A stretch of 64,000 nucleotides of DNA from Armatimonadota bacterium (GCA_025360125.1 JANYCU010000045.1:248001-312000); one strand, 5' to 3'; numbered from the stretch's first letter, positions 2,510 to 46,282 are shown. Translations and numbers: made by a program. The notes: a model not told the origin generated them from the letters alone.

Positions 2510-2930
2510 TCACGCGAACTCAATCAAGAGTATACATATTTAGAAGCGTTTGGCATCGATTCCAGACCACATTTAACCGAGAAAACTTAATTAAGTGAAC
2601 ATTAAGAGATGTGTTTTGTTTAAATATTGATGTATTTTACATACAAATAGTATACAATCTATACGATATTCACTGTTAATGTCTTCGAAAATGGAGGAAC
2701 CAACCTGGAACATAATCAAAAAAAGGGACCGCTATGCAGTCCCCTGTAATCGTCGTCGACCAGCCTACGCCCTGAATAAGTTACGGCACGGTCATACAAC
2801 TGTTGAGTCGGGACGAATCCCAACGCATTTCTCATTGTAGCCGAAATGGCGATCATTGCAAGTGCTTAGGCTCGGAACCGACCCCGATCCTCCCATCCAG
2901 ACCCGTTTGGATGGGATTTGAGCAATCATA
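2510..2930. other. Intergenic, partly AT-rich; divergent promoter region
   Basis: Gene-free 420 bp between divergent genes. 2570-2680 is notably AT-rich compared with its surroundings, as expected for promoters of the leftward 337-residue gene and possibly the rightward vWA gene. Apart from the hairpin at 2718-2744 I see no coding or RNA feature. Confidence 0.4.
2718..2744 (-). terminator. Rho-independent terminator-like hairpin (minus strand)
   Basis: On the minus strand, GGGACTGC and GCGGTCCC pair around a short loop and are followed directly by seven T (A run at 2718-2724 on the plus strand). No minus-strand gene lies immediately upstream, so it may be left over from a lost gene or may insulate the leftward gene. 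Confidence 0.55.
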
Positions 2931-3644
2931 ATGAGCGTAAAAATTATCGAAGCGATCGCTTCACATATGCGGCCAATCCGACTCGTCGGCACGGTTGCCC
3001 TCGTCCCTGCACTGAGCCTTGACCTGCCCCGAAAAATCGCGGCCGCGATGGTGGTTGCCAGCGTGATCGTGTCGTGCGGGAAGCAGCGTCCGCCCATCAA
3101 ACGACATGTCAACATCGCGATCGACATCAGCGACCAAACCGATACTGTCTTGCTCCGCTACGCGGATTGGACGTATCGAATGGAGCGCAACTTGTCAGAC
3201 ACCGATCTCCTCACCGTCACGGTTTTCGCCCACGACAACGAGATCGTGTACAGCGACCAGCCAATCCGCAACCGTTCGGATTTCAATGAGAAAGTTGCCT
3301 CGCGGTTCACCTTCAAGTCCGCTGCTCTTGGCAAACCCAATACTGAAACGGACAAGGTGATGTCCGATTTCGACGCCGACCGGTTTGCAGGGACGCAGGA
3401 GGACTGGATTCTGACTGACGGCGGCATCGAAAGCGTTGTCGGCACCAGGAAGGATCCGTTCGGAACAACGCTCAAGTCTCTTGCAAGCAAGCCGAACGTG
3501 GCGCGCGTGGCCGTAATTGGCGTGCAACAGGAGTACCGCCGCCAGTGGAAAGGTTGGCTCGACGACCTAGGCCCGAAAGCACTTCTTCGTGGGGTCGGTG
3601 ACGCGGACTCTAGCTTGGCTCTGCTGCAATCGGGGGCAAACTAA
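2931..3644 (+). CDS. vWA-domain-like lipoprotein
   Basis: 237 residues from the first ATG; the ATG at 2967 is an alternative start. A hydrophobic stretch ending in VIVSC at about residue 49 looks like a type II signal peptide with lipobox. It is followed by a domain with vWA features: VNIAIDISDQT at the first strand (MIDAS-like, DxS kept, second Ser missing) and ILTDGGIE further on, matching the conserved TDG of vWA domains. This suggests an extracytoplasmic adhesion- or complex-forming protein with a degenerate metal site. Its stop overlaps the ATG of the next gene (TAATG), so the two are translationally coupled and probably work together. vWA assignment is moderate. Confidence 0.5.
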   Translation: MSVKIIEAIASHMRPIRLVGTVALVPALSLDLPRKIAAAMVVASVIVSCGKQRPPIKRHVNIAIDISDQTDTVLLRYADWTYRMERNLSDTDLLTVTVFAHDNEIVYSDQPIRNRSDFNEKVASRFTFKSAALGKPNTETDKVMSDFDADRFAGTQEDWILTDGGIESVVGTRKDPFGTTLKSLASKPNVARVAVIGVQQEYRRQWKGWLDDLGPKALLRGVGDADSSLALLQSGAN

Positions 3645-11055: not shown

Positions 11056-14000
11056 GTGAAATTAGTCGAAAAATCCGAAGTTCAACTTGCCGAATCTCAA
11101 GGTTCCGTTAGCGATCCAATTTACCAGCATGCCTATCGGCCGCTTCCAAATCCGATCGATGGCTCGCTGAGCGTAGATCCGGAAATAATTCTTAAGGCTC
11201 TCGGAATGGGTCTAACGGTTGAATTTTTCTACAGCAGCCATTCGACGAGTAATAAACAATTTGGCAAACGAAGGTCTGCAAGTGTCAATGCGTATGTCAC
11301 TCCGGATTTAGAGGCTGGTGGTGCGAACGTCTTCCGAGGAGACCAAAGCTTCAATGCTTGGAATCTTCAAAGCAACATTGGTGGCATAACTACGTTTTCT
11401 CCCAATGCCGCTACCTACTCTTCGACTACTCTCATCTATAACGGCACAAAGTACCAAGAGCGATTCCCTGATGGAAGTCTGCTCGAGTATGAAACTCAAA
11501 ACGCTGGGGACTATCTGCTAACCCGGAGCATTTCTGCCGCTGGTTGTGTTCAAACCTTTAACTACGGCACCACCGTCGAAGCCGGTCTTCTCAAAACTCT
11601 CCAAGTAACCGACGGACGGAAAGTCACCTTCACCTACTCGGCAAGTTCCCCGACGTCGCTTCTCAGTTCGGTCCAAGATTGGGGTGGACGGTTCTGGACG
11701 TTCCAATACGATACGGATCGCCAGCTAACTACGTTCACCACTCCATTAGGATGCCAGACCGCACTAGGCTACGCGACGTTTTTTGGTAGCAAGTACTTAA
11801 ACTCCATTACCGACCCTAGAGGCTACGCAACCATTTACAGTTACGATGCCAGCGGTCGGGTTGCCTCGATGGCCCTTGGTAGTGCTGTTTACACTTATAT
11901 ATACGGAACCGCCGTTGCTCCATTCTTTAGTGGCTCTCAAGTCACTTCTCCGACTGGTGCGATTACCACCTACCTTGCCGATACTTCTGGAGTTCGAGAA
12001 GTTCGCCGGCCCGAGGGCTACACAACCACTTACAACTATGATTCCAACGGATTCCGAACTTCGGAGCGAGATCCTTCTGGATATCGGTACACCAATGTTT
12101 ACGATGCAAGAGGACGAGTTACCAAAACCGACGATCCTCTTGGCAATAGGACAACGTACCAATACGATGCTGCTGGAAACCGAACCACTATAATTAATGC
12201 CCTCGGGTTCATCTCTTCGATGGTCTACGATTCTAGTCGCAACATGACCGCAAGCGTTGATCCACTTGGACGAAGAACCAGCTTCAGCTACGATTCGTAT
12301 GGCCAAACCCTAACCAGTCAAGACCCAAGAGGACTCACCACTTCCTACCAATATGATTCCACTGGCAACCAAACTACGATAACCAATGCCGATGGAAGTG
12401 TCGTGACTCAAACCTTCGACACGTTTGGTAGGCAGTCGACTTCGACCGATCCGCTGGGCCGGACCACTAGCTATTCCTATGATGTCGCTGATCATGTCGT
12501 TGCAGTTATGAATCCAGCCGGTGAAACAAATACAACTGTTTACGATTCATGCATGCCGGTTGCCAAGGTCACTCCGATGGATCACCGCACTACGATGACC
12601 TACGGCCGATTCTCGAACGTTCTCACGACCCAAGATCCGATGGGAAATGTTTGGAGCCAGACCTATGACAACTTGGGAACCGCCCTGTCCAGTATCGATC
12701 CATTGGGACGAACAAACACGATGGTCTACAACGCCTCGATGCAGAAAATTGCGAGCCAAGACGCCCTTGGTAACTTGACTTCGTATAATTACGATAGCTC
12801 TGGCAGGCCAAATGGGGTGCAAGATGCCCTTGGTAATGTGACCACAACTATGTACGATGCGAGAGACGTCGTCGCTTCGCAAGATGCACTTGGTATTCGT
12901 AGTACACAGACTTTCGATGCCATCGGTAGACGGATCACTTACACATCACCGCTTGGCTTCATCAACTCCACTGTATATGATGCTGCCAATCAAGTAACGG
13001 GCCAAATAGGTCCGCTTGGTAACCGCACTACTTATACATTCAACGCAAGTAGTGCAAAGGAAGCGACTCAGGATGCATTGAATAATGTTTCAACCTTAAC
13101 ATACCAGGCAACAACAAATCGTGTCTCTGCCCAAACCGATGCGAAAGGCTTTATGACTACCTACAGTTATGATGTCTCAGGTCAGGGCATTTCGATCCAA
13201 GACGCCCTTGGATTCCTCTCAACCATCTCATACGACAAGGCAGGAAGAAGTCAGGCAACCGTCAATGCCCTTAATTACAGAACATCTTACTCCTACGACT
13301 CAGATGGCAGGTTGGCGGCACGAACAAGTGCACTGGGCCAGATGTCAACCTCAATCTACGATGCCAACGGCCGACAGATCGCGACGCAGACGCCTATGGG
13401 ATTCACCAGCACCACCGTCTACGATAGCGCAGGTCAAGTCTCAACTTTCCAAAACACACTTGGCCAACGGACTTCATATATCTACGATTCTCGAAGTAGC
13501 CAAATTGAAGTGCAAGACGCAAATGGCAATCGCACATCGACAGTCTACGATGCAGTGGGGCGAACAAGTGCCACGATTGACTCATTGGGCTTCAGAACGA
13601 GTTACACATACGATGCCATCAGCCGTCAAACTGGCCGAACCGACGCGTCAAACAACTTGATCACGATGTCCTATGATGGGAATAGCCGAATGACGGCTAT
13701 CTCGAATGAAATTGGCAAAGTCACGACGACAACTTACGATGCGGACGGAAGGGTTACTCAAAAGCAACAACCAAGCGGAATGGTGACGAGCTACTCATAC
13801 GACATTATCAACGAGCAAACAGGAATTCTCTATAACAATGGAACGAGAGTTACTTACACCTATGACCCCGTAGGACTTCAAACTTCCTCATCGAATAATA
13901 CAGGAACCACCACTTATGTCTATGATGGTAACGGCAGGATGCTTGGCAAAACTGATCCAGGATCTTTGGTTCAAGCATATAGCTACGATGCAGTTGGACA

Positions 14001-14712
14001 GCGTTTAACTCTGAAAAATCCCGATGGTGGAATACGGACCTTTAGCTATGATGCAATTGGACGAAAAAGTGCCTTCCGAGACCCCGACAATAATTTCACG
14101 ACCTTCCAATACGACGCCGATTCTCGAGAAACGACCACGGTGTTCAATTCCGGCATGACGCGGATTCGTAACTACGATGGAGTTAGTCGAACTACCAGAC
14201 TTCAAGATTCCAATGCGGCAAATGTGAATTTGCAACTTTTGACCTACACTTACGATTCAATTGGCAATCCAATCCAGATTCTAGATTCGAGTGGCGATCT
14301 TGTTCAATACGGCTACGATGCGAAATATCGATTGACTTCGGCAAAATTTGCTCCGGTCAGGAACCAGGTCTATACCTACATTTACGATGCGGTGGATAAC
14401 CGGACGTTTGCCAGCGAAGATGGTCCATCAACATTCACCTACAATGCCGCAGGTCAGGTTTTGGTAGGAAATGTCCTGGGCGTCCTCTCAACTTTTACAT
14501 TTGACAACGATGGCAACAATTCTGTTGTCCAAACAGGAGCAAACTTTGTTACAATGGGATATGATCAAGAGAATCGGATGATAGTTCATTCAAATGGAGC
14601 AGTGTTGAATACATTTAGCTACCAGTCAGATGGAATGAAGGGGACTGAGCGAAATGGAGCAACAATCACTACTCTGGTTTGGGACAGAAGCGAATACTTA
14701 GGAGCTTACTAA
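11056..14712 (+). CDS. Rhs/YD-repeat protein (shell part)
   Basis: 1218 residues, GTG start with GGAGG about 9 nt upstream. From about residue 250 to 1190 it is a tandem array of YD repeats (for example TYSYDVAG, TTYQYDAAGNRT, TSYTYDAISRQT) with many DPLGR/DALGN linkers, the hallmark of Rhs and Tc-toxin B/C shells that wrap a C-terminal toxin. No signal peptide is evident. Translation stops at 14712, just before the expected core. The next reading frame (14714) continues with that core, so the locus is either frameshifted or deliberately split, as TcB and TcC are. It follows the NifU-like and Cys-peptide genes without a terminator. Confidence 0.85.
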   Translation: MKLVEKSEVQLAESQGSVSDPIYQHAYRPLPNPIDGSLSVDPEIILKALGMGLTVEFFYSSHSTSNKQFGKRRSASVNAYVTPDLEAGGANVFRGDQSFNAWNLQSNIGGITTFSPNAATYSSTTLIYNGTKYQERFPDGSLLEYETQNAGDYLLTRSISAAGCVQTFNYGTTVEAGLLKTLQVTDGRKVTFTYSASSPTSLLSSVQDWGGRFWTFQYDTDRQLTTFTTPLGCQTALGYATFFGSKYLNSITDPRGYATIYSYDASGRVASMALGSAVYTYIYGTAVAPFFSGSQVTSPTGAITTYLADTSGVREVRRPEGYTTTYNYDSNGFRTSERDPSGYRYTNVYDARGRVTKTDDPLGNRTTYQYDAAGNRTTIINALGFISSMVYDSSRNMTASVDPLGRRTSFSYDSYGQTLTSQDPRGLTTSYQYDSTGNQTTITNADGSVVTQTFDTFGRQSTSTDPLGRTTSYSYDVADHVVAVMNPAGETNTTVYDSCMPVAKVTPMDHRTTMTYGRFSNVLTTQDPMGNVWSQTYDNLGTALSSIDPLGRTNTMVYNASMQKIASQDALGNLTSYNYDSSGRPNGVQDALGNVTTTMYDARDVVASQDALGIRSTQTFDAIGRRITYTSPLGFINSTVYDAANQVTGQIGPLGNRTTYTFNASSAKEATQDALNNVSTLTYQATTNRVSAQTDAKGFMTTYSYDVSGQGISIQDALGFLSTISYDKAGRSQATVNALNYRTSYSYDSDGRLAARTSALGQMSTSIYDANGRQIATQTPMGFTSTTVYDSAGQVSTFQNTLGQRTSYIYDSRSSQIEVQDANGNRTSTVYDAVGRTSATIDSLGFRTSYTYDAISRQTGRTDASNNLITMSYDGNSRMTAISNEIGKVTTTTYDADGRVTQKQQPSGMVTSYSYDIINEQTGILYNNGTRVTYTYDPVGLQTSSSNNTGTTTYVYDGNGRMLGKTDPGSLVQAYSYDAVGQRLTLKNPDGGIRTFSYDAIGRKSAFRDPDNNFTTFQYDADSRETTTVFNSGMTRIRNYDGVSRTTRLQDSNAANVNLQLLTYTYDSIGNPIQILDSSGDLVQYGYDAKYRLTSAKFAPVRNQVYTYIYDAVDNRTFASEDGPSTFTYNAAGQVLVGNVLGVLSTFTFDNDGNNSVVQTGANFVTMGYDQENRMIVHSNGAVLNTFSYQSDGMKGTERNGATITTLVWDRSEYLGAY

Positions 14713-16351: not shown

Positions 16352-17428
16352 CTAACCTGAGGTGTTCAGTGTGGAACCGAGTATCAAATGCAATTTGCGT
16401 TCAATGTCGGAATCTTCAATCCCGAGGTCCGACAGAATTGAGTAAAAGTTTTCAGCGACAGAATGAAGACCCGGGTGCTTGGCACTAGTGGCCACGGAAT
16501 GACGAACAAGTATTTTGAGTGCCCGTTCAATTAAGGCTCCAGCTTCGGAAGCTCGGCCCGTCATTTGCAAACTCAATGCAAGGAGGTTCAAGATGTTTGC
16601 GACTTCAGGGGAATCTGCACCTCGACATGATTCTTCAATCCTCAAAGCACGGCGCAAGAATGGTTCCGCTTCCGAGAAGCGGTCAGCGTCCCAAAGTAAG
16701 GATGCTAAGTTGGAGAGAGCACGAGCCACATCGGGATGATCTTCATCGTGAGAAGAATCTTCGATCTCAAGAGCTTCACGATATAGAGACTCTGCTTCAC
16801 ATACGCGACCACCCAATTCAAGTATGAGAGCAAGCTCATTGAGGTCCCTGGCTACGTTGGGATGGTTTGACCCATAATATGACCTCTCGATAATCAGAGC
16901 TCGACGTAATAAAGGCTCTGCCTCAGACAGGCGATTTGTGAGTCGAAACAAAGACGCCAGATTATACAGATTCATTGCAATATCCGGGTGATCTTTGCCA
17001 TAGCTTGATTCTTCGATTGCTAGGGCACGGTGAAATAATGGCTCTGCCTTTGCCAAGTCGCCAGCAAAATAGTATTGCAATGCTAGATTGCTCATCGTTC
17101 TTGCAAGGTAAGGATGACTGCTTTCGTGGCTTTCCTGGTAAATCTTCAGGGCTCGCAAAATCAAAGGCTCACCCTCTAAAAGGTTTCCAGAAGACCGAAG
17201 ATGGTTAGCCAGGTTGTTTAGTGTTTGGGCGACGTCAGGGTGGTCGGCACCAAGAATAGCTTCTTGAATGGAAAGCGCACGTCTCATCAAAGGCTCTGCT
17301 TCAGATAAGCGACCAGTTGCCGAAAGGAGGTTGCCAAGATTGCTGAGGTCTCTTGCCACATTAATATGACCGCTACCAAAACTAGCTTCATCGATTTCCA
17401 AAGCACGACGCAAAAGTGGCTCTGTCAC
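16352..17428 (-). CDS. Kinesin-light-chain-type TPR protein, 5'-truncated
   Basis: 358 residues from a GTG at 17428, composed of about seven 42-residue TPR units (AEPLLRRAL.IEE..G.DHPDVA..L.NLA), and a non-repeat tail. The sequence starts in the middle of a repeat (EPLLRRALEIDE) exactly where Rhs core coding begins on the other strand, with GGCTCTG shared at 17418-17424. The true N-terminus has therefore been lost by a rearrangement and the GTG is probably fortuitous. Such TPR arrays mediate protein interactions and are often fused to STAND or CHAT domains, which are absent here. Confidence 0.65.
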   Translation of the reverse strand: MTEPLLRRALEIDEASFGSGHINVARDLSNLGNLLSATGRLSEAEPLMRRALSIQEAILGADHPDVAQTLNNLANHLRSSGNLLEGEPLILRALKIYQESHESSHPYLARTMSNLALQYYFAGDLAKAEPLFHRALAIEESSYGKDHPDIAMNLYNLASLFRLTNRLSEAEPLLRRALIIERSYYGSNHPNVARDLNELALILELGGRVCEAESLYREALEIEDSSHDEDHPDVARALSNLASLLWDADRFSEAEPFLRRALRIEESCRGADSPEVANILNLLALSLQMTGRASEAGALIERALKILVRHSVATSAKHPGLHSVAENFYSILSDLGIEDSDIERKLHLILGSTLNTSG

Positions 17429-19553: not shown

Positions 19554-20312
19554 GTGGCAAGGTCTGAAAAGACAAGTAAGGCATCGATCGAACACGTGTC
19601 GATTCAAATTGGATCGTCAGCGGACAGTCTTTTCGCCGCGAGAGACTTCAAAGGACATGGCCATTCGTCCGCATCGAGGCAATTAGCACAATTGGCAAAT
19701 CAAGGGGTGCTGATCCGAGCAGCTAGAGGTTTGTATTACTTGCCAAAAGACACCTTGCTCGGGAAAAGCAGACCTACGCAGTTGGCTGTCTTCGAACGGA
19801 TCTGGGCGGGCAAGTATCGGCCGACACTGACGAGTGCTGCTTATATCTTGGGGCTCACCACTCAAATTCCCGCTAGGCCCCAGTTCGTTCTCTATGCCAG
19901 TCGGCTACCATCCAACTTCGGCGACATTCAAATAACCCTTCGAAGCGGCAAAAGACCTCGCCCTCTTCCAAAGCTGGAAGGAGCATTAATTGAATTCCTT
20001 CGAGACCGAGGAGCTTGTGCCGAGGCTGATCCTCAAGAAACATGCATTCGACTCCAAGAAGTCATCAAAGAATATATGTCAGGAAAAGCATTGTCTTTGC
20101 TTTGCGAAGTAGCCCTGACCGAACCAGCGAAGGTCCGAGCTATCCTAGGAGCATTGCTCGAGTGGTCAGAAACTGACAGGATCCTTTGGGAACGCCTTCG
20201 TTCTTCATTAAATCCCCGATCTCGATTTGATTTTGGTCATTTTTCTCAAATGGAAAACTGCCAGAGGTGGCAAATCAAGCTGGCCGAAATACCAGAAACT
20301 AGTAGTGCCTGA
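19554..20312 (+). CDS. AbiEi/DUF6088-like antitoxin-type transcription regulator
   Basis: 252 residues, GTG start. The N-terminal ~80 residues form the winged-helix module of AbiEi-type proteins: SSASRQLAQLANQGVLIRAARGLYYLP. A DUF6088-like domain follows (TLTSAAYILGLTTQIP, then FGDIQITLRS). In type IV toxin-antitoxin systems the AbiEi antitoxin represses its operon and counteracts a nucleotidyltransferase toxin AbiEii. No AbiEii follows here; the next 280 bp is non-coding and contains an integration-site scar. It is therefore a solitary antitoxin or regulator, possibly left after loss of the toxin. Confidence 0.65.
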   Translation: MARSEKTSKASIEHVSIQIGSSADSLFAARDFKGHGHSSASRQLAQLANQGVLIRAARGLYYLPKDTLLGKSRPTQLAVFERIWAGKYRPTLTSAAYILGLTTQIPARPQFVLYASRLPSNFGDIQITLRSGKRPRPLPKLEGALIEFLRDRGACAEADPQETCIRLQEVIKEYMSGKALSLLCEVALTEPAKVRAILGALLEWSETDRILWERLRSSLNPRSRFDFGHFSQMENCQRWQIKLAEIPETSSA

Positions 20313-20322: not shown

Positions 20323-20424
20323 GTCTCTCAAAAGTCTCTCAATTGGTGGAGACATTAAGAGACTTCCAGAGATGTCCACAGATTCAAAACGACACCATTG
20401 AACCTACGAAAACTCCCTTGAGGT
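20323..20424 (+). repeat. Integration-junction repeat, copy 1 (partial)
   Basis: Contains the 11-bp tandem arm motif GTCTCTCAAAA/GTCTCTCAATT, then ACTTCCAGAGA and AGATTCAAAA blocks, then CCTTGAGGT. It aligns with 26621-26722 and 41931-42032, and the spacing from arm to loop is 95 nt in all three. After TTGAGGT this copy diverges, so it lacks the tRNA 3' end. The following ~165 bp before comB shows nothing else. Confidence 0.7.
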
Positions 20425-20592: not shown

Positions 20593-21327
20593 TTGAGTGT
20601 TTACGATCAGGACGGGTTCGACGTTCGATTCGATTGGGGGCGTGGTGGAGCTGAAAGGGCGGTTACTCGCGGTGACGCACTTGTTGTTGTAGATACGTTG
20701 CGATTTGGCACGGCAGTTGTGGCTGCTCTGGCAAAGGGTGGGGTCGTGATTCCTTGTCGTGACGTAGAGGAACAAAGCAGAGCGATTCAACTATCAGGAG
20801 CCACTGAAGTAACAAAAGGCGGTCCAGGGTATTCACTCTGTCCCAATAGTTTTGATGACTTGAAAAGAGGAACGTTGCTTGCCATTGCCTCACCGAATGG
20901 TGCTACGTGCTGTCATATTGGGGCGCGTGGAAACACGGTCATTGTCGCCTCCATCGTCAATGCAAAAGCGGCCGGAGACCATATTGCGAGCCTGCTTACT
21001 AAAAGTGCGGTGACAGTTCTTGCATGTGGTGCACATTGGGATATTCCAAACCCAGATGGTCTACTTAGGTTCGCGACCGAAGATTATTTAGGTGCCGGAG
21101 CAATCATGTCGCACCTGAAATCTTCTCTGTCTCCTGAAGCAGAAATTTGCCGTGCCGCGTATTTAGGAACCCGTGAAAATCTAGCAACAATATTCAGCGA
21201 GTCAGCGAGTGGACGCAAATTGGCTATGCGAGGCCAAGCAGAGGACGTTCTATATGCAGCGCAAGAGAATATCCACATGGTTGTGCCTGTGTTGCGGAAC
21301 GGGTATTTGGTCGAAGTAAATAGCTGA
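20593..21327 (+). CDS. comB: 2-phosphosulfolactate phosphatase family protein (ComB-like)
   Basis: 244 residues from a TTG at 20593. Motifs match the ComB family: VVVDTLRFGTAVVAALAKGG (as VIDVLRATSTIvtAL), then the IASPNGATCCHIG loop (as LSPNGS) and ASIVNAKAAGDHI. ComB hydrolyses 2-phosphosulfolactate in the coenzyme M/sulfolactate pathway, and family members in unrelated bacteria probably act on similar phosphorylated hydroxy acids. No other sulfolactate genes are nearby, so it is cargo of the element bounded by the junction repeats. The family call is good; the physiological substrate is uncertain. Confidence 0.75.
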   Translation: MSVYDQDGFDVRFDWGRGGAERAVTRGDALVVVDTLRFGTAVVAALAKGGVVIPCRDVEEQSRAIQLSGATEVTKGGPGYSLCPNSFDDLKRGTLLAIASPNGATCCHIGARGNTVIVASIVNAKAAGDHIASLLTKSAVTVLACGAHWDIPNPDGLLRFATEDYLGAGAIMSHLKSSLSPEAEICRAAYLGTRENLATIFSESASGRKLAMRGQAEDVLYAAQENIHMVVPVLRNGYLVEVNS

Positions 21328-21963: not shown

Positions 21964-21994
21964 TGCCCCCAGTGGTTGAAGCCACTTGGGGGCA
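21964..21994 (-). terminator. Terminator of the phosphotransferase operon
   Basis: TGCCCCCAGTGG and CCACTTGGGGGCA form a strong stem with a short loop, 24 nt past the stop of the isochorismatase-like gene on the minus strand. It is followed by a moderately T-rich tail (ACTTTGGCGTTTTG). Confidence 0.55.
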
Positions 21995-22017: not shown

Positions 22018-22575
22018 CTACAGTCTGACTGCTGAGAATTTTTTCATGGTGCTCAGAGCTTTTTCATGATCTGCATCATTTGCCGCAGCACAGCAGTTCG
22101 CCACGATTTCGACTTCGAAATCTCGGTCGTGTGCGTCTCGTGCAGCCGATTCAACCGCAATGTCGGTTGCCACACCGGCAATAAGAACTTTGGTTACACC
22201 CAGATCCTTGAGTATTTGGTCAAGGCCGGTGCCGAAGAAGGCGCTGATTCGCTTTTTCACCAAAACAATATCTCCGTCTTGAGGGGCAACTTCGCTGGCA
22301 AAAGCTGTGGAAGCCGTCTCCTCTTGCAGAATCCCGCCAGCTTTTGCACCGCCGAGCAGTGGGGACGAGCCTGGATGGTCTGAGTAATCTGATGCAAATC
22401 CAAGATGTACGTGGATGATTTTGCCGCCAGCAGCCCTAACTGCTACTTGTTCGGCTGCCAAGTTGCTCAGCGTGTTGTGTCTGGTTACAAAGTCGTAGTA
22501 GCCCTTTCCAGCTAACTTGCCGGAAGCGCCTACGATTTCATTGATGAAGTCGATGCAGATTAGTGCGTTATGCAT
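22018..22575 (-). CDS. Isochorismatase-fold hydrolase lacking the cysteine nucleophile
   Basis: 185 residues, last gene of the five-gene leftward operon, overlapping its upstream neighbour by 8 nt. The fold is clear: ALICIDFINEI (Asp of the triad), then VLVKKRISAFFGT (Lys) and VLIAGVATDIAVESAARDA. In cysteine hydrolases of this family the last motif reads TDxCVxxTAxDA; here the Cys position is Ala. True isochorismatases (EntB, PhzD) also lack this Cys, so the protein may hydrolyse a vinyl ether or act non-hydrolytically. Context suggests it processes the product of the ATP-grasp/His-domain phosphotransferase upstream. Confidence 0.75.
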   Translation of the reverse strand: MHNALICIDFINEIVGASGKLAGKGYYDFVTRHNTLSNLAAEQVAVRAAGGKIIHVHLGFASDYSDHPGSSPLLGGAKAGGILQEETASTAFASEVAPQDGDIVLVKKRISAFFGTGLDQILKDLGVTKVLIAGVATDIAVESAARDAHDRDFEVEIVANCCAAANDADHEKALSTMKKFSAVRL

Positions 22576-23521
22576 GTTGTTTTTCCTCTTGTGTGTTTAG
22601 TTGTTTTTTGTCGGCGAGATGTGTAAATTCCTTCGGCAACCGGGTCATGGGTCTTGCTTGTACTATAGTGATTTCGGCTTTGGCGTCAACTACAAGCTCT
22701 ATATCCTGTGGCATCCCGAAAATGGATTCAATTTCGAGTGAGAGTGCAATGATCTTGTTAAGCACTTCATCTGAAACGGCAAGACGGTTGCGAACGTCAT
22801 CGGGTAGTGCCCTCTTTTTAGAATTGCTGGCTCCTCTCGTGAAGGGATCATATTCGAGTGCGAATTCCTTCCTGCCCACAACTCGCTCCAAAATGCGACC
22901 ATCCTCTCTCAAAAAGGTCACTTCATCCGGACAAATTGATCCATCGACAATAACCGCGCAAGGGCCAATAGCAAGCTCAATACCACCAATTGTGCCATCA
23001 GAAAGCGGGTCGACCGTCATCACAACCGCTGAGGCTGTAGCTGGCACCATTTCCTGTACCAAGACGGTCATCGCGCTGTTGTCGATATAGTGTTCACCTA
23101 CTTCGAACGAATGGAGGCTACGTTCATTAAACAAAGAAGCCCAGCACTGAACTACAGCATCTTTTGCATCCTGCATCGGGACGTTTAGAAAGGATTCGAA
23201 TTGTCCGGCCAGCGAGACTTCTTGGCTATCTTCAGCTACTAATCGGCCATTGGTTACAATGAAACCTGAAGATCGAACCGCCAAATTTGAGTCCGAAGGG
23301 ATATTGCTGAGACCCTCATTCAATGCCGCCACAGTGCACGAAGGCATTTCAATCGTTGAGAAGATTGCTCGAATAGCGTTCGAGTCCCTCGACCACTTTA
23401 TGAGTTCTCCACGAATAGGCTGGACAGCTTCTCGGTAGTGAGTTTCGTCAAGAAAGAAGCCTGATGGGGTCCGAATCCCATACTTCGAGATTTCAATGAG
23501 GTTTAGAGCTTTTCGAGACAT
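22568..23521 (-). CDS. PPDK/PEP-synthase-type ATP-grasp domain as a separate protein
   Basis: 317 residues with a strong GGAGGA ribosome site. Motifs are those of the N-terminal ATP-binding domain of PEP synthase, PPDK and rifampin phosphotransferase: NLAVRSSG, then AGQFESFLNV, VLVQEMVPATASAVVMTVDP and the final IELVVDAKAEITIVQARP. The size (~315) equals that domain alone. The His swivelling domain is encoded by the preceding gene (19-nt overlap), so a normally single-chain enzyme is split here. Expected chemistry: ATP phosphorylates the mobile His, which passes phosphate to a substrate. The substrate-binding part may be the 335-residue protein of the same operon. Confidence 0.8.
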   Translation of the reverse strand: MSRKALNLIEISKYGIRTPSGFFLDETHYREAVQPIRGELIKWSRDSNAIRAIFSTIEMPSCTVAALNEGLSNIPSDSNLAVRSSGFIVTNGRLVAEDSQEVSLAGQFESFLNVPMQDAKDAVVQCWASLFNERSLHSFEVGEHYIDNSAMTVLVQEMVPATASAVVMTVDPLSDGTIGGIELAIGPCAVIVDGSICPDEVTFLREDGRILERVVGRKEFALEYDPFTRGASNSKKRALPDDVRNRLAVSDEVLNKIIALSLEIESIFGMPQDIELVVDAKAEITIVQARPMTRLPKEFTHLADKKQLNTQEEKQHA

Positions 23522-23865
23522 GATTCCTCCAACTCAGCTACGTATTCCTCATCGGCATTGACTAGAACAGTCAGCGCATTACGCAGATTTCCCTTCGCAT
23601 TGTCAACTTGAAGCAACGTGGGCTTTTGGTTTTCCCGGGCCCAAACAGCGGCGTGGGAAAATCGACCGCCGGTCTCGGTTACAACGGCAGATGCTCGGTG
23701 CATGGCAGGCACATACGCTATGTCCGTTTGTGCTGAAATGAGGATGTCTCCTTCGAGCACGTTGTCGAGATCAGTTTCATGTTCGATGACTACTGGACGT
23801 CCAACGGCTTTGCCAGCACATGCACGTCGCCCTGGGTACTTATTTTTTGTTTCTGGATTATTCAT
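23503..23865 (-). CDS. PEP-utilising mobile (swivelling phospho-His) domain protein
   Basis: 120 residues. ETGGRFSHAAVWARE carries the phospho-acceptor His of the family (consensus TxGGxxSHaAixARe), preceded by GDILISAQTDIAYVPAM (as in the GDILVtxxTxPdwxpam strand). This is the complete swivelling domain of PEP-synthase-like enzymes with nothing fused. Together with the ATP-grasp protein it should make a two-protein phosphoryl-transfer device. It overlaps both neighbours (8 and 19 nt), implying equimolar translation. Confidence 0.8.
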   Translation of the reverse strand: MNNPETKNKYPGRRACAGKAVGRPVVIEHETDLDNVLEGDILISAQTDIAYVPAMHRASAVVTETGGRFSHAAVWARENQKPTLLQVDNAKGNLRNALTVLVNADEEYVAELEESCLEKL

Positions 23866-24865
23866 GTCGACTCTTATATTCCGCTAAGTTAAATAAATTC
23901 ATCTTTCCTACGAGCAACTTGATTTGATCCAAGGGAGGTCTTCGCTCAACATGGTGAGCCATTCGGAAGACCATCCCGATCGGTAAACCAACGCACCCCT
24001 TAAAGCTGAATGCAGGTTCGAGAACAAGATTGAGAACGTTCAGGCTCATGATTTTGTCAACAAGAGCAAGGGTTGTAGGCTGGAGCCGAGATAATGCGAG
24101 ACCGTGACTATCTGACTCCAGCCGCTGATCACCGGAGCCTTTTTCAACCAGTGACTGAGGCGGCATCGAGGAATATAGATGCTCTGTTGCAACTAAATTC
24201 CACCGTACGTGCCGTCGCAAGAACTGCCAAGCCGTTGGGTGATGCTGCTCAGAAACATCCATAATTTCGTCTATTGACGGTGGTTGGGGGAATACGCGTC
24301 GGAAATCTTGGAAATCGTTGATCAAACAGGTTTCGGCCGTCCGTATAGGAGCCACGGGAGTACAAAGGTCGAACAATTCGTCCTCAGTACCATGTTCCTG
24401 AAGGAATTGATCTTCAAGCAATTCTATGCGTCGATCGAGACCGTCTGGAGAAGACTTTCCAAATTGACCTCGCAACGACTCTGCAACCAGCGCATCTTCA
24501 TAAATTTCGAAGATTTCCCATTGACTTGATCCGGAAAAGAACTCAAGCGCTTCAAATCCTGTCCAGACAAATCCAAGAGCACTAAATTCGAAGCCGCGAA
24601 GGAAATCAGCATGCGTTCCTGCGACCCAAATACCATGTGGCCATATCGTGTCTCGAATGACATGGCGGTAATAGTCGGTGTGCGAGTAGTACGCCTCTGT
24701 TCCGAAATCTAGAACCGTCTGTAAAAGCCTCTCTCGTCCAAAGATGCTCTCGGATCGCATGATCTCGCCTTCGATTCGGTCGACAATGCCTAGGGCCTCG
24801 GCAGTATGCGGCAACAACTCACCAAGCCAGCCTATTGGAGAAGTTAATCGGCTCATTTGGTTCAT
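23858..24865 (-). CDS. Unknown 335-residue helical protein; possible substrate-binding subunit
   Basis: Start set at ATG 24865, which forms an ATGA overlap with the stop of the HTH gene; the longer open frame begins inside that gene. The sequence is mainly helical, rich in Trp, Phe and His (VIRDTIWPHGIWVAGTHADFLRGFEF, FLRRHVRWNLVATEHLY), without membrane segments or a motif I recognise. In rifampin phosphotransferase a large helical substrate domain sits between the ATP-grasp and His domains. Here a separate protein of comparable type is encoded with both, so I infer a substrate-recognition role. This is a guess from context. Confidence 0.5.
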   Translation of the reverse strand: MNQMSRLTSPIGWLGELLPHTAEALGIVDRIEGEIMRSESIFGRERLLQTVLDFGTEAYYSHTDYYRHVIRDTIWPHGIWVAGTHADFLRGFEFSALGFVWTGFEALEFFSGSSQWEIFEIYEDALVAESLRGQFGKSSPDGLDRRIELLEDQFLQEHGTEDELFDLCTPVAPIRTAETCLINDFQDFRRVFPQPPSIDEIMDVSEQHHPTAWQFLRRHVRWNLVATEHLYSSMPPQSLVEKGSGDQRLESDSHGLALSRLQPTTLALVDKIMSLNVLNLVLEPAFSFKGCVGLPIGMVFRMAHHVERRPPLDQIKLLVGKMNLFNLAEYKSRHE

Positions 24866-25692
24866 TGATCTAATCCCTCCCGTACGAACTTTATGAATTG
24901 CTCGTCTGTCCAAGGCTCAGCAGTCCGACGGAGTTTTTCGAAAGTTTCTTCGAAGCTTGTAACTAAAGGTCGAAGTTGAAACTCAAGGTGGATATCTTCA
25001 ACCCGGACCAAGGCTGTTCCGGGAGGAGTGTGGCACCCAAACATTGGCAAGTCTGGAGAATGAGTTAAATAAACGAACCTATGTACATTTGGTTTCTTCG
25101 TGCTATCCACGAACACTTCAATCTGAGCCTGGCGAAGATCCTCTGTAATCGATCTGTAACGACCTCGACCATGCAGGAAATCCAAATAGCCGTATCCATT
25201 CCAAATCTCCCAGCTTTCGTAATTGCCCTCCTGGTAGAAGCGTTTGCGCTCCGAGCGAATTCCAAGAACTTCGGCCTCAATCTTTGATGCTTCCGAGCCG
25301 TAGTCCTCAAGCAGCAGGAGGCGGGTGATCTCTGGGAGTTCGTCGTTGACCGTGTATGCTGGCAACGTGATGAGGCGCAAGCCAGCATTCTTGGCGAGTA
25401 CTGCCTCAAGCTCAAGTCGACGTCGCTCTGAACCAAGGATGCAGTCCTGCGTCCATACTGCTCCGTTCGCGAGAGGTAGCCCAAACCGTTGAGCTAATTT
25501 ACAGACTTGCCCCAAGGAAATAGCTTCTGGGTTCGATTTGTATCGGTACATCGTCGCAATTGAGACGTCGATTGCTTCGGCCGCTTCTTCCACGGATTTA
25601 CGTGTGGTGAAACGCTCGTTTATAAAACTGCCAATCAAATCCAAATCCACAGTCTCATAGTATAGAATTTGAGACTGTAATTGTTGAAACAA
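24862..25692 (-). CDS. HTH protein heading the phosphotransferase operon
   Basis: 276 residues. Residues ~28-75 (TTRKSVEEAAEAIDVSIATMYRYKSNPEAISLGQVCKLAQRFGLPL) read as an XRE-type helix-turn-helix. The C-terminal 200 residues are not recognised; they contain charged helices (EITRLLLLEDYGSEASKIEAEVL) and beta-like segments. As first gene of an overlapping operon opposite a divergent gene (25954), it is probably a regulator sensing the operon's substrate. The 260-bp gap upstream is AT-rich and should carry both promoters. Confidence 0.6.
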   Translation of the reverse strand: MFQQLQSQILYYETVDLDLIGSFINERFTTRKSVEEAAEAIDVSIATMYRYKSNPEAISLGQVCKLAQRFGLPLANGAVWTQDCILGSERRRLELEAVLAKNAGLRLITLPAYTVNDELPEITRLLLLEDYGSEASKIEAEVLGIRSERKRFYQEGNYESWEIWNGYGYLDFLHGRGRYRSITEDLRQAQIEVFVDSTKKPNVHRFVYLTHSPDLPMFGCHTPPGTALVRVEDIHLEFQLRPLVTSFEETFEKLRRTAEPWTDEQFIKFVREGLDQ

Positions 25693-25953: not shown

Positions 25954-26577
25954 ATGAGTAAACCAGTCTTGCTTCTAACATGGTTAGAGCCATCTGAATC
26001 GAACGAAGCGAAAGCAGCCTACGACCAATATCGCGAATTCTTCGATATCGAATTTGTATTTTCTGGCAAAGGCGATCCGGGTAAGCAGATGTTTGAGGAC
26101 GGAATTCTAAGTTGGGGCGAGGGTAACGACAACGCTCAATTCTTGTACATCGGAACCCACGGTAGCCCGAAGGATATTGGGCCGCAAAGCGACCCTGGTG
26201 CAACTTGGGAAGAGCTTTGGAGGTGGCTACTCGCGGGCCAAAAGACCATGAAGCCAAGGTCGACATCGCTGACCGTCATTTTTGGAGCTTGCTTCTCGTC
26301 TTCTGCAGCTGATTCCTGGACACCTATGCTTGAGGGCTCTTTGACTCTTCCCCCCGTTTACGAAATAGTATCATTTGACGGATCGCCGGACGAGTCGGAG
26401 GTCGAAATTCTCCTCAACTCGCTTATGAAAGAATGCAAAGATTTAAATACTCGATCAACTGAAACTTGGTTGTCGGAAGTACAGCTATCTATCGAGACAA
26501 AAATTGTTCTTCACCGGTTCAACAGTCGAGATCCGATGGCCTACGCCGAAGTGCCCTTACAGGATGTTCTTCCGTGA
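25954..26577 (+). CDS. Small caspase/CHAT-like protein
   Basis: 207 residues. A His-Cys pair of the caspase-fold type is visible: FLYIGTHGSP (about residue 70) and LTVIFGACFSSSA (about residue 113), each after a hydrophobic strand, as in CHAT and metacaspase p20-like domains. Nothing is fused to it, unlike most CHAT proteins. It is divergent from the phosphotransferase operon and is the last gene before the tRNA-derived junction at 26.7 kb. It may be a stand-alone protease or a toxin-like effector. The fold inference is moderate. Confidence 0.55.
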   Translation: MSKPVLLLTWLEPSESNEAKAAYDQYREFFDIEFVFSGKGDPGKQMFEDGILSWGEGNDNAQFLYIGTHGSPKDIGPQSDPGATWEELWRWLLAGQKTMKPRSTSLTVIFGACFSSSAADSWTPMLEGSLTLPPVYEIVSFDGSPDESEVEILLNSLMKECKDLNTRSTETWLSEVQLSIETKIVLHRFNSRDPMAYAEVPLQDVLP

Positions 26578-26620: not shown

Positions 26621-26769
26621 GGCTCTCAAATGGCTCTCAATTGAGGGAGAAATCGAGAGACTTCCTGACACATATGTAGATTCAAAATCACCTCCTTGAA
26701 CCTACCAAAACTCCCTTGAGGTGGTAGTGCTCACAAGGTGTGAAGGTTCGAGTCCTTTCCCGCGCACCA
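26621..26769 (+). repeat. Integration junction, copy 2, with tRNA-Leu(GAG) 3' half
   Basis: The arm motif GGCTCTCAAAT/GGCTCTCAATT at 26621-26642 is followed 95 nt later by the anticodon loop TTGAGGT (26716-26722, anticodon GAG). Then come the anticodon stem GGTAG, a variable arm, T-arm GGTTCGAGTCC and an acceptor strand ending GCGCACCA at 26769. The 5' half of the tRNA is absent. 26696-26769 is identical to 42006-42079 (74 bp). This is the classic anticodon-loop target of tyrosine integrases. Confidence 0.85.
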
Positions 26770-41930: not shown

Positions 41931-42079
41931 GTCTCTCAAAAGTCTCTCAATTGGAGGAGAAAGTGAGAAACTTCCAGAGACGTCCGTAGATTCAAAATCG
42001 TTACTTTGAACCTACCAAAACTCCCTTGAGGTGGTAGTGCTCACAAGGTGTGAAGGTTCGAGTCCTTTCCCGCGCACCA
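41931..42079 (+). repeat. Integration junction, copy 3 (attL of the integrase-bearing element)
   Basis: Arm motif GTCTCTCAAAA/GTCTCTCAATT at 41931-41952, anticodon loop TTGAGGT at 42026-42032, tRNA-Leu(GAG) 3' half to CCA at 42079. 42006-42079 is identical to 26696-26769. The integrase gene begins 136 nt to the right, reading toward the site, the usual int-att arrangement. No intact tRNA-Leu is present in the window. Confidence 0.85.
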
Positions 42080-42214: not shown

Positions 42215-43351
42215 CTAAACCCCCAGGATGCGGTCAAGAGATTCGCGAAGTATTGCTTGGGCCGCTGTAAGCGGCCTTGTGTAGTTAGCTTCTGTCACTC
42301 CTGTAGCGGCGTGACCAATGTGCTCTTTCATCGTTGTCTGTGAAACGTCGGGCATCAACTTCTCGATGATATTGATGTGTGTCAATCGGCAGTCGTGAGG
42401 CGACATGGCGCTAGGCAGTCCAGAATCTTCGAGAATCGACTTCCAAACTTCATAGACCTGCTTCTTCATCCTTGGCTCATTAATGGTTGCCTTGGGCCAT
42501 AGAAAGGCATCAGGAGACGAACTATGAACATGGACAAGGAGAATTGACTTAAGGCGCTGGCACATGACCACGTTTCGAGTCTTATTGCCCTTAGGAAGCC
42601 CGAGACTTTGCTTGCCACCGAAGGCGACAAGTACAGCCTGATCAACGACGACCAAATTGTCATCGAAGCGCAACTTTGAAACCTGCATTGCCATCATTTC
42701 GCCCAGCCTTAGTCCTCCAAGAAGGAGGAGTGCGAGCAAGGCTCTGCGTGATTCGTCGAGCTTTTCATTTCTAATTGCAGCTATAACTTCAGTTGGGGAC
42801 AATGCTACAGCCTGACGCGCAATCGGTTGTGGGACCGATAGGCGAAAAGGATTCGCCATCGTCATTGGTATCCGTCCATACGGAACAATGGCCTGGTTGA
42901 AGGCCCTTACAAGATCCGCTCGTACCGAAATCACCAAGGTGTCCTTTGCGCCGTTCGCCCGAAGCTCCCTGTAAAAAGAGCGAACTTTCATGGGATCAAT
43001 CTTTGAAAGTGCCGTGCCACCGAAATGCTTCTTCACATACTTTTTGAATCGGCGTTTGCGTTGCTCAATAGTGACTGCTGCCAAGCTTTCAGGCCAGTCG
43101 TTTTCGGCCAGCCATGAAAACCACTCGTCTAATGTCATTTCACGAGACTGCCGAGCTGTCTCAACTTTCGTTCCTCGATGAAGAGATCGAAGAAAATCCT
43201 TTCCTTCGGTTTTCGTTGTAAAGACTCGTGAAAGCCGTTGCTTATGACCAGTTAGAGTCTCCACGGTATATTGCACCCGCCACTTCGATTTTTGTCGACC
43301 TGTTAAGATTTCACGGCAAATGCCGTCTTTGTTATCTGCTCTCTTTGCCAT
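42215..43351 (-). CDS. Tyrosine recombinase (integrase) of a tRNA-Leu-targeting element
   Basis: 378 residues. The catalytic set is visible: Arg215 in GGLRLGEM, His319-x-x-Arg322 in SPHDCRLTH, His344 or His347 in HIGHAATG, and the nucleophile Tyr357 in EANYTRP. An N-terminal SAM-like core-binding domain spans ~70-170, and the first ~60 residues form an AP2-like arm-binding region (SKWRVQYTVETLTGHK). It should recombine the tRNA-Leu 3' end at 42.03 kb and probably the related junctions at 20.4 and 26.7 kb. Cotranscribed downstream of the xis and mobilisation genes. Confidence 0.9.
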   Translation of the reverse strand: MAKRADNKDGICREILTGRQKSKWRVQYTVETLTGHKQRLSRVFTTKTEGKDFLRSLHRGTKVETARQSREMTLDEWFSWLAENDWPESLAAVTIEQRKRRFKKYVKKHFGGTALSKIDPMKVRSFYRELRANGAKDTLVISVRADLVRAFNQAIVPYGRIPMTMANPFRLSVPQPIARQAVALSPTEVIAAIRNEKLDESRRALLALLLLGGLRLGEMMAMQVSKLRFDDNLVVVDQAVLVAFGGKQSLGLPKGNKTRNVVMCQRLKSILLVHVHSSSPDAFLWPKATINEPRMKKQVYEVWKSILEDSGLPSAMSPHDCRLTHINIIEKLMPDVSQTTMKEHIGHAATGVTEANYTRPLTAAQAILRESLDRILGV

Positions 43352-43408
43352 GAATCCACGTTCTAAGAAGGTGCGTGATGCTGCAAATTCGAATTCATTG
43401 ACGCACCA

Positions 43409-43636
43409 TTAGCGAATGACTCGGAGCTTTGGAGACTGCTCCAAACTCTCGACAAACGAAATGAGTTGTTCCCGCGAAATGCGTCTACTCCGCCCGATGG
43501 ACACGGTAGCCAGGTCGCCTTGGTCCGCCAGACGATAGAGTTGGCTTCTCGACAAAGAGAGAATTTCCTCAGCCTCCTCAAGCGTAAAGAGGAGCTTATC
43601 AGGGTGTATCTGCTTGCTGGCCTCGATCCGGATCAT
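43409..43636 (-). CDS. Excisionase-type HTH protein
   Basis: 75 residues from an ATG overlapping the upstream stop (ATGA at 43636). Residues ~15-60 are a typical HTH_17/MerR-like excisionase fold: LFTLEEAEEILSLSRSQLYRL, then IGRSRRISREQLISFV. It precedes the integrase by 57 nt on the same strand, so it should be the recombination directionality factor of this element. Confidence 0.8.
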   Translation of the reverse strand: MIRIEASKQIHPDKLLFTLEEAEEILSLSRSQLYRLADQGDLATVSIGRSRRISREQLISFVESLEQSPKLRVIR

Positions 43637-44256
43637 TTCAACACCACCCGCCACCCAAAAGGTCTAGTCTTTGGTATGGCGTCGTAGTCAATCCCAATAA
43701 TCAGGAATCGTTGCTCGAATGGAAAACCCTTAGGAACTCGGCTTCTTGGCACAAGGGTAACTGTGTGCAGGCCAGGAATTTCTCCTTTCAGCAATGCATT
43801 TACACCAGGGTTTTCAGAAGCAATCTCCTTTAGGGTTAGTGCCGCCAGGTGACAGGAGGCATTGGTGAGTCTGATGCGTGGATGAGGGTACTTCGGACGG
43901 TTGCCGAGAATGTTCTTCATCACACGCTCTACCTCCAGTTTCACGATTTGACTTCGGTCTTTCCCCCTTAGACGGTCTTCGAGAATACTGGTTGCGACAA
44001 GCTTTAGCTTTGCTTTCACGGTGTCGATTACGATACGTTCAACGTTCTCTTTCATGCTGTCGCTGAGGTCATGTTCCTTTGGGCGGCTATCCAAAGTGTC
44101 GATTACGATACGCTCGATGTTCTCTTTCATGTGGTCGCTGAGGTTATGCTCTACAGGGCGGAATTCGACCTGAAAAGGGCGCGCCTCAACAGCGTCTTTT
44201 ACAATTTCCTCGATTAGCTCCCTTAGGGAAGTTGGCAGGGTTGCATAGGTTTTCAT
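43633..44256 (-). CDS. Mobile-element protein with internal duplication
   Basis: 207 residues from ATG 44256, placed 7 nt after the stop of the upstream relaxation gene. Near residues 35-80 a ~24-residue unit is duplicated (SDHMKENIERIVIDTLDSR then SDSMKENVERIVIDTVKAK), with matching DNA, so the duplication is recent. The C-terminal ~90 residues (TLVPRSRVPKGFPFEQRFLIIGIDYD) are an unrecognised compact domain. Position between mobilisation and excision genes suggests an accessory transfer role. Function unknown. Confidence 0.5.
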   Translation of the reverse strand: MKTYATLPTSLRELIEEIVKDAVEARPFQVEFRPVEHNLSDHMKENIERIVIDTLDSRPKEHDLSDSMKENVERIVIDTVKAKLKLVATSILEDRLRGKDRSQIVKLEVERVMKNILGNRPKYPHPRIRLTNASCHLAALTLKEIASENPGVNALLKGEIPGLHTVTLVPRSRVPKGFPFEQRFLIIGIDYDAIPKTRPFGWRVVLK

Positions 44257-44263
44257 TTTCTTC

Positions 44264-44941
44264 TTAACTCCATTGGCGAATTGGTCTGACACCGGTCTCT
44301 TCAAATGTCTGGCAGAGAAAGTCAAAGCCTGGACTCTTAGGTAGGACGGTGCGCAAGTGGCGAGCCCGGAGTGATCCGGTGGTAATGGTCAGCAGTCTAA
44401 AAGTGTCGAACCCGTAGAGATCTCGACACCGGTTCTCATGAGTAAGAGCGCTGTAGCCAGCTAGCTTCTCTTTGAACTTAGCTGGGGCAACATGCCCGAG
44501 ATCGACTTCAACAAAGATAGGGATGCTGTTAGTCAGGATGAGTCCATCAGGTCGAATCTCAAACCTTCTTGGAGTTTCCAGTGTGCGCCAGAGTTGTTGC
44601 TCAAATCTCCAACCCACACCCTTTTGACTCAAGGCGATTCGGGCGTTCGTGACAGAAAGCGCATGGCACACAAAGCGCGGTGATCCACTTCTGCGGTCTA
44701 TAAGATTGGATATGCCACTACCCACAATTTCACTTGCTCTGCAGCCGGGTACGTAGAGGCTTTGGGCGAAGAATGGTGTTTCTAGACGTCGGATTAGAGC
44801 AGTGGAAGACAGTTCGCGCAGTCTCGTGTTGGCACGTGTTATCGAGGAAAAGAAGCCAAGATCTATTATCTGATCACGACTCAGTAGGTGGCTTAGGGCC
44901 ATGTCCTTGACGAGACGAATGTCTCGATCTGTTACTCTCAC
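44264..44941 (-). CDS. Replication-relaxation family protein, second copy
   Basis: 225 residues from the GTG at 44941 that overlaps the upstream stop (GTGA) with GGGGGA ahead. Same architecture as 359-1036: winged-helix start (TDRDIRLVKDMALSHLLSRDQ), IRPDGLIL and FVEVDLGHV. The D...ExD pattern again looks like a nuclease-type core. Partner of the VirD4-like ATPase upstream. Inferred to process or relax element DNA for transfer. Confidence 0.7.
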   Translation of the reverse strand: MRVTDRDIRLVKDMALSHLLSRDQIIDLGFFSSITRANTRLRELSSTALIRRLETPFFAQSLYVPGCRASEIVGSGISNLIDRRSGSPRFVCHALSVTNARIALSQKGVGWRFEQQLWRTLETPRRFEIRPDGLILTNSIPIFVEVDLGHVAPAKFKEKLAGYSALTHENRCRDLYGFDTFRLLTITTGSLRARHLRTVLPKSPGFDFLCQTFEETGVRPIRQWS

Positions 44942-46281
44942 AGCCAATCCCCCAAAGACGGACTGCTTTGACTCACCGGTAGAGCCTTTTTAACCCGCCC
45001 CTGCAATTTCCTAGGTTCAAAGGGAGGAACAGCTTCTCGTAACTCACGGACAAAAGTTTGAGCCTGTGCACTCAGTTCACCAACGTTAAGTAAAAGTGGT
45101 TCACTAAGCTCAATGCGAGTTGGCTCAATTTGACGATGCCACAGAAAGGCTTCTCCGACGGGAAGATCAGCGAGATTCAATGCTTTACGATCACCTGTTA
45201 GGTCTTTGGAGAGCGCCTCGGCGTCCTCGCGACCGGTTCGGAAAAAGAGTTTCACGCCGACGTTATTGAGGATCATTGACCGCATTCTCGGAGTGAGCTG
45301 AATGAGGGTTTGGTTGGCAAGGAAGAGCGACAATTTGAATCGGCGTCCTTCGGCTAAGATCGACTCAAAATCGTCCATCGAAAAGTTTTCAAATTCATCG
45401 ACATACAAGCGTACGGAAACCCTTTGAGCTTCGGGGATATTCACCCGGGCGAATATTTCTCGGCAGATTGCCGAGAGGAAAAGAGAGCCCATCATCCGCG
45501 CCGCACCGTGAAGTTCGTCAACGGCAAGAGAGACTAAGGTGACCGTTCCCGGTGTATTGAGGTGCTTGCCAAGGTCAACTGGCTTGGGATGTCCAAGCGT
45601 TCTGCGAAGACCCTCCGTACAGAGCAGGAGGCTCACTTTGTTCATAACGGGGGCGACATATGCCGCCTGCTTCTCGGGCGTTAGATCATTAAATCGGCCC
45701 CAAAATCGAAGTAATGTCTCCGACTCTGTGATTACGAGTAGTGAGTTGCGGAAGACTTCATCGGTGAGGAGCTGTTCAAGTTCCGGCAAAGAATGTCCTG
45801 TCTCTGCCAGGAGTAAAAGTGCCATCCGAAGCGTCTCTGCCAACTGAACTCCGAAGGACTCATTCTCATTGGCAATCGCTGCTAATACATTAAGTGCGCG
45901 AAAGTAACTTTCACCTGCGCCATACAGTGGATTGAATCCGAGAGGGCGATCCTTTTCTCTGAGGTCAAAGAGCTTGACCCTGGAAGGTGGAATGCGACCG
46001 GCTATAAGCTCAAGTGCCGCTGCGATTTGATCCCCACGCAAGTCAAAAATGACAAGCGAGTGTCCTTCCTGAATGTCTTGATTCCAGAAATGGTGAAGTG
46101 CAGTTGTCTTGCCGCTACCGGTTGCGCCAATAGCGTAACCGTGTGTCCTTAGAAGATGAATAGGGACTGAAACCCACTGGTAAGGTTCTGGTTCAGAGTC
46201 CCACTCATCAAGAATCGATGCGTCATATTTCCGCCAATGCTTTTTCACTCCGAGCCAGTGAGTAGGAAGCAATTCAGCCAA
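44938..46281 (-). CDS. VirD4/TraG-type DNA-translocating ATPase
   Basis: 447 residues from the TTG at 46281, which has GGGGAGG six nt upstream and follows the previous stop; an upstream TTG at 46296 would overlap. Walker A GATGSGKTTAL is at about residue 55, Walker B SVRLYVDEFENF at about 300, and a sensor-like FLANQTLIQLTPRM follows. No transmembrane helices are seen at the N-terminus, as in TraD/MobB-type coupling proteins of mobilisable elements. It would pump element DNA during transfer. It is the complete relative of the fragment at 1-362. Confidence 0.8.
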   Translation of the reverse strand: MAELLPTHWLGVKKHWRKYDASILDEWDSEPEPYQWVSVPIHLLRTHGYAIGATGSGKTTALHHFWNQDIQEGHSLVIFDLRGDQIAAALELIAGRIPPSRVKLFDLREKDRPLGFNPLYGAGESYFRALNVLAAIANENESFGVQLAETLRMALLLLAETGHSLPELEQLLTDEVFRNSLLVITESETLLRFWGRFNDLTPEKQAAYVAPVMNKVSLLLCTEGLRRTLGHPKPVDLGKHLNTPGTVTLVSLAVDELHGAARMMGSLFLSAICREIFARVNIPEAQRVSVRLYVDEFENFSMDDFESILAEGRRFKLSLFLANQTLIQLTPRMRSMILNNVGVKLFFRTGREDAEALSKDLTGDRKALNLADLPVGEAFLWHRQIEPTRIELSEPLLLNVGELSAQAQTFVRELREAVPPFEPRKLQGRVKKALPVSQSSPSLGDWL

Positions 46282-46282
46282 T

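Follow-up and report, generated by a model that had tools for sequence, protein, structure and literature searches.

An overlapping five-gene operon from an Armatimonadota bacterium that may encode a three-component small-molecule dikinase

The two-component small-molecule dikinases HpeHI, CreHI, and PpsAB carry their substrate domain and their swivelling phospho-histidine domain on one chain and the ATP-grasp on the other (PMC12167813; PMC6114531; PMC7500099). In rifampin phosphotransferase (RPH), the ATP-grasp, RIF-binding, and swivel domains follow each other on a single chain (PMC4844700), and all domains of phosphoenolpyruvate (PEP) synthase and pyruvate phosphate dikinase (PPDK) are likewise found on one chain. 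Here, we describe an operon from an Armatimonadota bacterium (GCA_025360125.1; genome of 4.13 Mb) in which the swivel and the ATP-grasp are encoded by separate genes, next to a third gene for a protein without recognised relatives. The operon is located in a stretch of 64,000 nt (the window; positions 248001-312000 of contig 56), and the coordinates given below are those of the window unless another contig or locus is named. We consider it somewhat better than an even chance that this operon encodes a three-component small-molecule dikinase, with swivel and ATP-grasp on separate chains, and that it was probably acquired as cargo. As read from the sequence, it consists of five overlapping genes on the minus strand (25692-22018), named A to E in their order, that are followed by a candidate hairpin:

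24862..25692, minus strand: gene A, helix-turn-helix (HTH) protein of at most 276 amino acids (aa), with a C-terminal part of about 200 aa that belongs to no known family; probable regulator
23858..24865, minus strand: gene B, protein of 335 aa, ATG start at 24865; proposed acceptor or substrate subunit
23503..23865, minus strand: gene C, stand-alone phospho-histidine swivel domain of 120 aa
22568..23521, minus strand: gene D, stand-alone PPDK-type ATP-grasp of 317 aa
22018..22575, minus strand: gene E, isochorismatase-fold protein of 185 aa
21965..21993, minus strand: candidate end-of-operon hairpin, GCCCCCAAGTGG-cttcaa-CCACTGGGGGC, with one bulge

The first-pass annotation of this DNA had reported this five-gene composition with an overlap of 4 to 19 nt at every junction, and both observations were borne out. 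The reading frames are present, all five are open, good ribosome-binding sites are found at several of them, and the Pfam matches of C, D, and E are far above chance. Genes A and B share the 4 nt ATGA (24862-24865), B and C overlap by 8 nt in a different frame (23858-23865), C and D by 19 nt (23503-23521), and D and E by 8 nt (22568-22575). The presence of an overlap at every junction suggests joint translation. The evidence for genes A and B as such consists of the overlapping start and stop junctions and of a codon-position GC pattern that resembles that of genes C to E. The hairpin at 21965-21993 was not picked up by a simple terminator scan.

The core of the proposed enzyme is formed by proteins C and D. 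Protein C matched PF00391 (Pfam, 6.9e-17), could be aligned with the swivel in the solved structures of PEP synthases and RPH, and contained the sequence TGGRFSHAAV with the histidine H71, which agrees with the histidine motif of the GG-x-T-S/C-H-A-A type, the position of the regulatory Thr being occupied by Phe. Homology shows C to be a putative phospho-carrier of the PEP synthase/RPH class. Protein D matched PF01326 (Pfam, 4.1e-45), and in alignments of 14 sequences (D and 13 relatives) and 39 sequences (D and 38 relatives) it kept the residues of the invariant columns, i.e. K4, R83, S84, S85, E97, D98, Q156, E275, Q288, and R290. In RPH, the phosphates of ATP are positioned by Lys22, Arg117, and Thr136 (PMC4844700); according to our own reading of the alignment, the counterparts of Lys22 and Arg117 are kept in D, and Ser110 takes the place of Thr136. 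The AlphaFold2 model of D had a mean predicted local distance difference test score (pLDDT) of 91 and was similar to the structures of PEP synthase (2ols; Z 31.0, root-mean-square deviation [rmsd] 2.1, 276 residues), RPH (5hv1; Z 30.6, rmsd 2.4, 283 residues), and HpeI (9goj; Z 23.8, rmsd 6.1, 278 residues) as well as to several PPDK structures (Z about 18-20). Protein D confidently models as an ATP-grasp of the PEP synthase/RPH/HpeI class that appears to retain its nucleotide residues, and the concern raised in the first-pass annotation, that the ATP-grasp might lack its ATP-binding residues on structural modelling, was not borne out, the ATP residues being kept in D. In NCBIfam, C and D were placed among enzymes of the PEP synthase, RPH, and prodigiosin-ligase type, where such domains are always part of a longer chain.

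The position of D in a phylogenetic tree was also considered as a pointer to the parent system and was discarded as uninformative, D being grouped with two fused Rhodococcus proteins with a support of 0.72 and on a very long branch. Stand-alone ATP-grasp genes were also found at three other loci (L110, L119, and L126). A second PPDK_N match of the same genome is located at positions 98958-99848 of contig 56 (locus L001) in an open frame of 614 aa, and no swivel match was found in the stretch examined.

When compared with HpeHI, CreHI, and PpsAB, the operon has in common an ATP-grasp on a chain of its own, the conserved histidine of the swivel, and the order substrate domain, swivel, ATP-grasp, the model of D resembling HpeI as indicated above. 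However, the swivel of these enzymes is fused to the substrate domain in a chain of about 70 kDa, whereas B and C are encoded by separate genes, and a homology of B to the substrate domain of HpeH or PpsA is unrecognisable. Since the defining fusion of swivel and substrate domain is absent, we did not file the operon as a two-component dikinase. With RPH, it shares the ATP-grasp and swivel modules together with their catalytic residues, but these are separate genes in another order, and no RIF-binding domain was recognisable in the operon. Likewise, the ATP-grasp and the swivel are common to PEP synthase and PPDK, where they are joined to all other domains in one chain, while none of the five operon proteins gave a Pfam match to a PEP/pyruvate-binding domain. 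The gene pairs on plasmids of T. roseum and D. radiodurans resemble the operon in having separate PEP/pyruvate-binding and PEP-utilizing genes on accessory DNA, but in them the swivel and the substrate part form one chain, and their neighbours are genes for oxidoreductases, a P450, or a carbamoyltransferase. In the case of D. radiodurans plasmid pSP1 (locus L177), the swivel/ATP-grasp pair lies beside P450 and carbamoyltransferase genes and near Qat anti-phage genes, and its ATP-grasp is annotated at only 258 aa, which is probably incomplete.

A further relative in terms of architecture was found in Patescibacteria. At the loci L155, L169, L170, L171, L172, and L174, a stand-alone swivel gene lies beside a gene for a protein of about 350-370 aa without a recognised family, designated P3, matches to which were present in 8 of 287 genomes. 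At L170, the swivel (1182-1574), P3 (1540-2637), and ATP-grasp (2604-3578) genes overlap in a row, so that the window is not the only place with a three-gene layout. Loci of the L170 type resemble the operon in their free-standing swivel next to an orphan protein of about 360 aa, and all genes of L170 overlap as those in the window do; they differ from it in their order (swivel, orphan, ATP-grasp) and in that P3 has no detectable similarity to B. Profile comparison revealed no significant link of P3 to known substrate domains, and no HTH or isochorismatase gene was recognised beside the swivel and P3 genes of these loci. Taken together, the Patescibacteria loci suggest that the architecture recurs and has been overlooked, in part for want of a Pfam model of the substrate parts. 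In one Patescibacteria genome, we also observed tandem arrays (L156, 6087-10561; L157, 6337-10598) of three swivel-containing alpha-like proteins of about 360-505 aa, and ten such matches were present in this genome in all.

The first-pass annotation had stated that no described system has this composition. This was too strong, because two-component dikinases already split off the ATP-grasp, and besides HpeHI, CreHI, and PpsAB, the plasmid two-gene pairs and the three-gene split of Patescibacteria precede the operon as well. No description of a three-component dikinase was found in the open-licence literature.

Based on gene order and size, we infer that protein B is the acceptor or substrate subunit: (i) the order B-C-D in the window is what an alpha-beta pair (substrate domain and swivel, then ATP-grasp) would show if its alpha chain were cut in two and (ii) B and C together amount to 455 aa, as compared with 478-567 aa for the single-chain alpha proteins found. 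Of the modular phosphotransferase proposed in the first-pass annotation, the split PEP-synthase/RPH-like part stands, with an intact-looking ATP-grasp and swivel in a tight operon, whereas the role of B as its substrate subunit is still something that we infer. No match of B was found in Pfam, NCBIfam, or PADLOC, and no relative among 291 genomes of the phylum or in plasmids or phages. A search of genome and viral contigs with exact 8-residue patterns, which detects close relatives only, returned no match, and searches run without a positive control revealed none in 211 Patescibacteria genomes or in 216 genomes from the phylum to which a Chloroflexi record belongs. A BLASTP comparison of B with single alpha proteins indicated a suggestive WPHG stretch (E 0.046); neither this nor profile comparison rose above shuffled or reversed controls, in a test that proved weak when true relatives were used.

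The two flanking genes of the operon are A and E. The HTH match of protein A was weak, both HTH_22 (E 0.0028) and HTH_3 (E 0.0062) being below the Pfam cut-off, the TTG at 25692 is a tentative start, and no relative of A was found among the 291 genomes of the phylum or in plasmids. Protein E matched PF00857 (Pfam, 4.4e-36), and its alignment with biuret hydrolase, 3kl2, and RutB revealed that Asp9 and the Lys at 107/108 are kept, while the position of the nucleophilic Cys is taken by Ala140, leaving the Asp-Lys-Cys triad of isochorismatase-like cysteine hydrolases incomplete. For this reason, E differs from ordinary cysteine amidohydrolases, and of the downstream hydrolase announced earlier, the isochorismatase fold was confirmed and the amidohydrolase nucleophile was not. 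True isochorismatases likewise have no such nucleophilic Cys, and E might work by a Cys-less mechanism of their type.

By analogy with RPH, HpeHI, and PpsAB, D would bind Mg-ATP and move the beta,gamma-diphosphoryl group onto His71 of C, with release of AMP. The subsequent loss of Pi would give phospho-C, which would dock on B and phosphorylate an acceptor (a hydroxyl, an amine, or a carboxylate) held by B. Protein A would probably control the expression of the operon, and E, as a Cys-less isochorismatase fold, would probably act on the product or the substrate. It is conceivable that all five proteins serve one shared pathway, and a role in antibiotic inactivation, catabolism, signalling, or defence might be envisaged.

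The surroundings of the operon point to mobile DNA, as it is bracketed by two copies of an att-like repeat of about 105 nt:

20325..20424, plus strand: left copy of the repeat, 79% identical to the right copy
26623..26768, plus strand: right copy, with the repeat at 26623-26722 running into a tRNA 3'-end-like sequence, GGTTCGAGTCC...CGCGCACCA

More than 10 full or partial copies of this repeat are present in the genome, including six strong ones on the contig of the window. Four aligned copies share the tRNA 3'-end-like tail ending with CGCGCACCA, and a complete tRNA was not detected anywhere in the window. Copies are found near tyrosine integrase genes in the window (gene at 42218-43351, repeat near 41931-42032) and on contigs 14 and 38. 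Genes for Replic_Relax and for a TraG/TrwB-like coupling protein follow at 44264-46296, and the region 42218-46296 probably belongs to an integrative conjugative element. Judged from their position, the repeats may be attachment-type repeats of integrative elements that form an array of integration sites. Enclosed by copies of a repeat that is also found beside tyrosine integrases, the operon is probably horizontally acquired cargo. The bracketed module of 6.3 kb consists of a 2-phosphosulfolactate-phosphatase-like gene, an open reading frame of 144 aa, the operon, and a divergent gene for a protein of 207 aa, and its GC content is 0.47-0.49 as compared with 0.52-0.61 over 29.5-40 kb.

The 2-phosphosulfolactate-phosphatase-like (ComB) gene at 20593-21327 (PF04029, 1.4e-22) is convergent with the operon. 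The 207-aa protein (25954-26577), whose gene is divergent from it, contains GTHG and GACFSS motifs and is possibly a caspase-like peptidase, its match to Peptidase_C13 being insignificant (E 0.26). An AbiEi-like antitoxin gene is located just outside the module (19554-20312; PADLOC match). Genes for an RHS-repeat protein of 1218 aa (11056-14712) and a TPR-repeat protein (16352-17428) lie where the GC content of the window is lower.

Several observations speak against a three-component dikinase. So far, a single genome is known to contain the operon. The single-sequence AlphaFold2 model of B was unusable (pLDDT 36) and was discarded, so that its all-helix look was not used. Furthermore, B was compared by hhalign with profiles of the RPH/alpha substrate region (96 rows), of the Patescibacteria alpha proteins, and of the Patescibacteria P3 family. 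The first comparison gave P 0.14, with 3 of 60 shuffles scoring as high, and the second P 0.77, which is within the shuffled controls; a kinship of B with P3 was unsupported, with a P of 0.26-0.41 and 23 of 60 shuffles as high. None of these values stood out clearly from those of shuffled or reversed B. In the same test, the two substrate-domain profiles recognised each other (4e-8), while single true members of the substrate domain gave P values of 6e-5 to 0.07 one way and 0.08 to 0.71 the other. As single true members often fail too, B may still be a divergent substrate domain. As for D, 8 aa are inserted between RSSG and AED, unlike in any of its 13 relatives in the smaller alignment, GPCA is found where GLGE is expected, and the branch of D is very long (2.2 versus a median of 0.39); together, these features indicate that its function may be altered or lost.

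We regard it as unlikely that B is a new acceptor module and not a divergent domain of the RIF-binding type. In that event, C would be a mobile phospho-carrier for B, and perhaps for A, in a small-molecule phosphorylation that resembles the phosphotransferase system (PTS), and the three-gene loci of Patescibacteria would be an independent instance with another acceptor protein. It seems improbable to us that the operon encodes a regulatory phosphorelay, in which the phosphoryl group would pass from D to C and on to a protein, A or B, like in EI and HPr of the PTS, and would control transcription. C is indeed a free carrier, the gene of an HTH protein overlaps the system, and no resemblance of B to known small-molecule binding domains was detected; however, the characterised ATP-grasp and swivel systems of the papers cited above act on small molecules, E looks metabolic, and since A and B are both without relatives, no conserved acceptor residue is identifiable in either. 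Equally improbable, in our estimation, is a decaying or neofunctionalised remnant, i.e. a fused or two-component dikinase that was broken up on a mobile island and is no longer a phosphotransferase. This would fit the peculiarities of D, whose insert lies beside the Arg that positions the ATP phosphates, the missing Cys of E, and the location between integrase-linked repeats, but the five open frames with tidy overlaps and several good ribosome-binding sites argue against it, as does the well-ordered model of D; nor would drift favour the conservation seen in C (the swivel His) and in D (the invariant ATP residues). Finally, a conflict or defence cassette, in which the phosphotransferase would make or remove a modified metabolite and the caspase-like gene at 25954-26577 or other cargo would be the effector, appears more doubtful still: the att-like repeats that bracket the module, the AbiEi-like gene just outside it, and the motifs of the 207-aa neighbour, which are typical of caspase-like peptidases, are in its favour, but there is only one such locus, PADLOC matched none of A to E, and the caspase reading consists of motifs and an insignificant match.

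We return to the three-component dikinase and propose that the operon, on apparent mobile DNA, encodes a small-molecule dikinase in a three-chain form that is probably functional and has an orphan as its proposed acceptor protein. Antibiotics and aromatic compounds are the targets of RPH-like dikinases, which in their described forms consist of one or two chains. If our proposal is true, the swivelling mechanism would work across three separate proteins, and one phosphorylation engine could pair with different acceptors.

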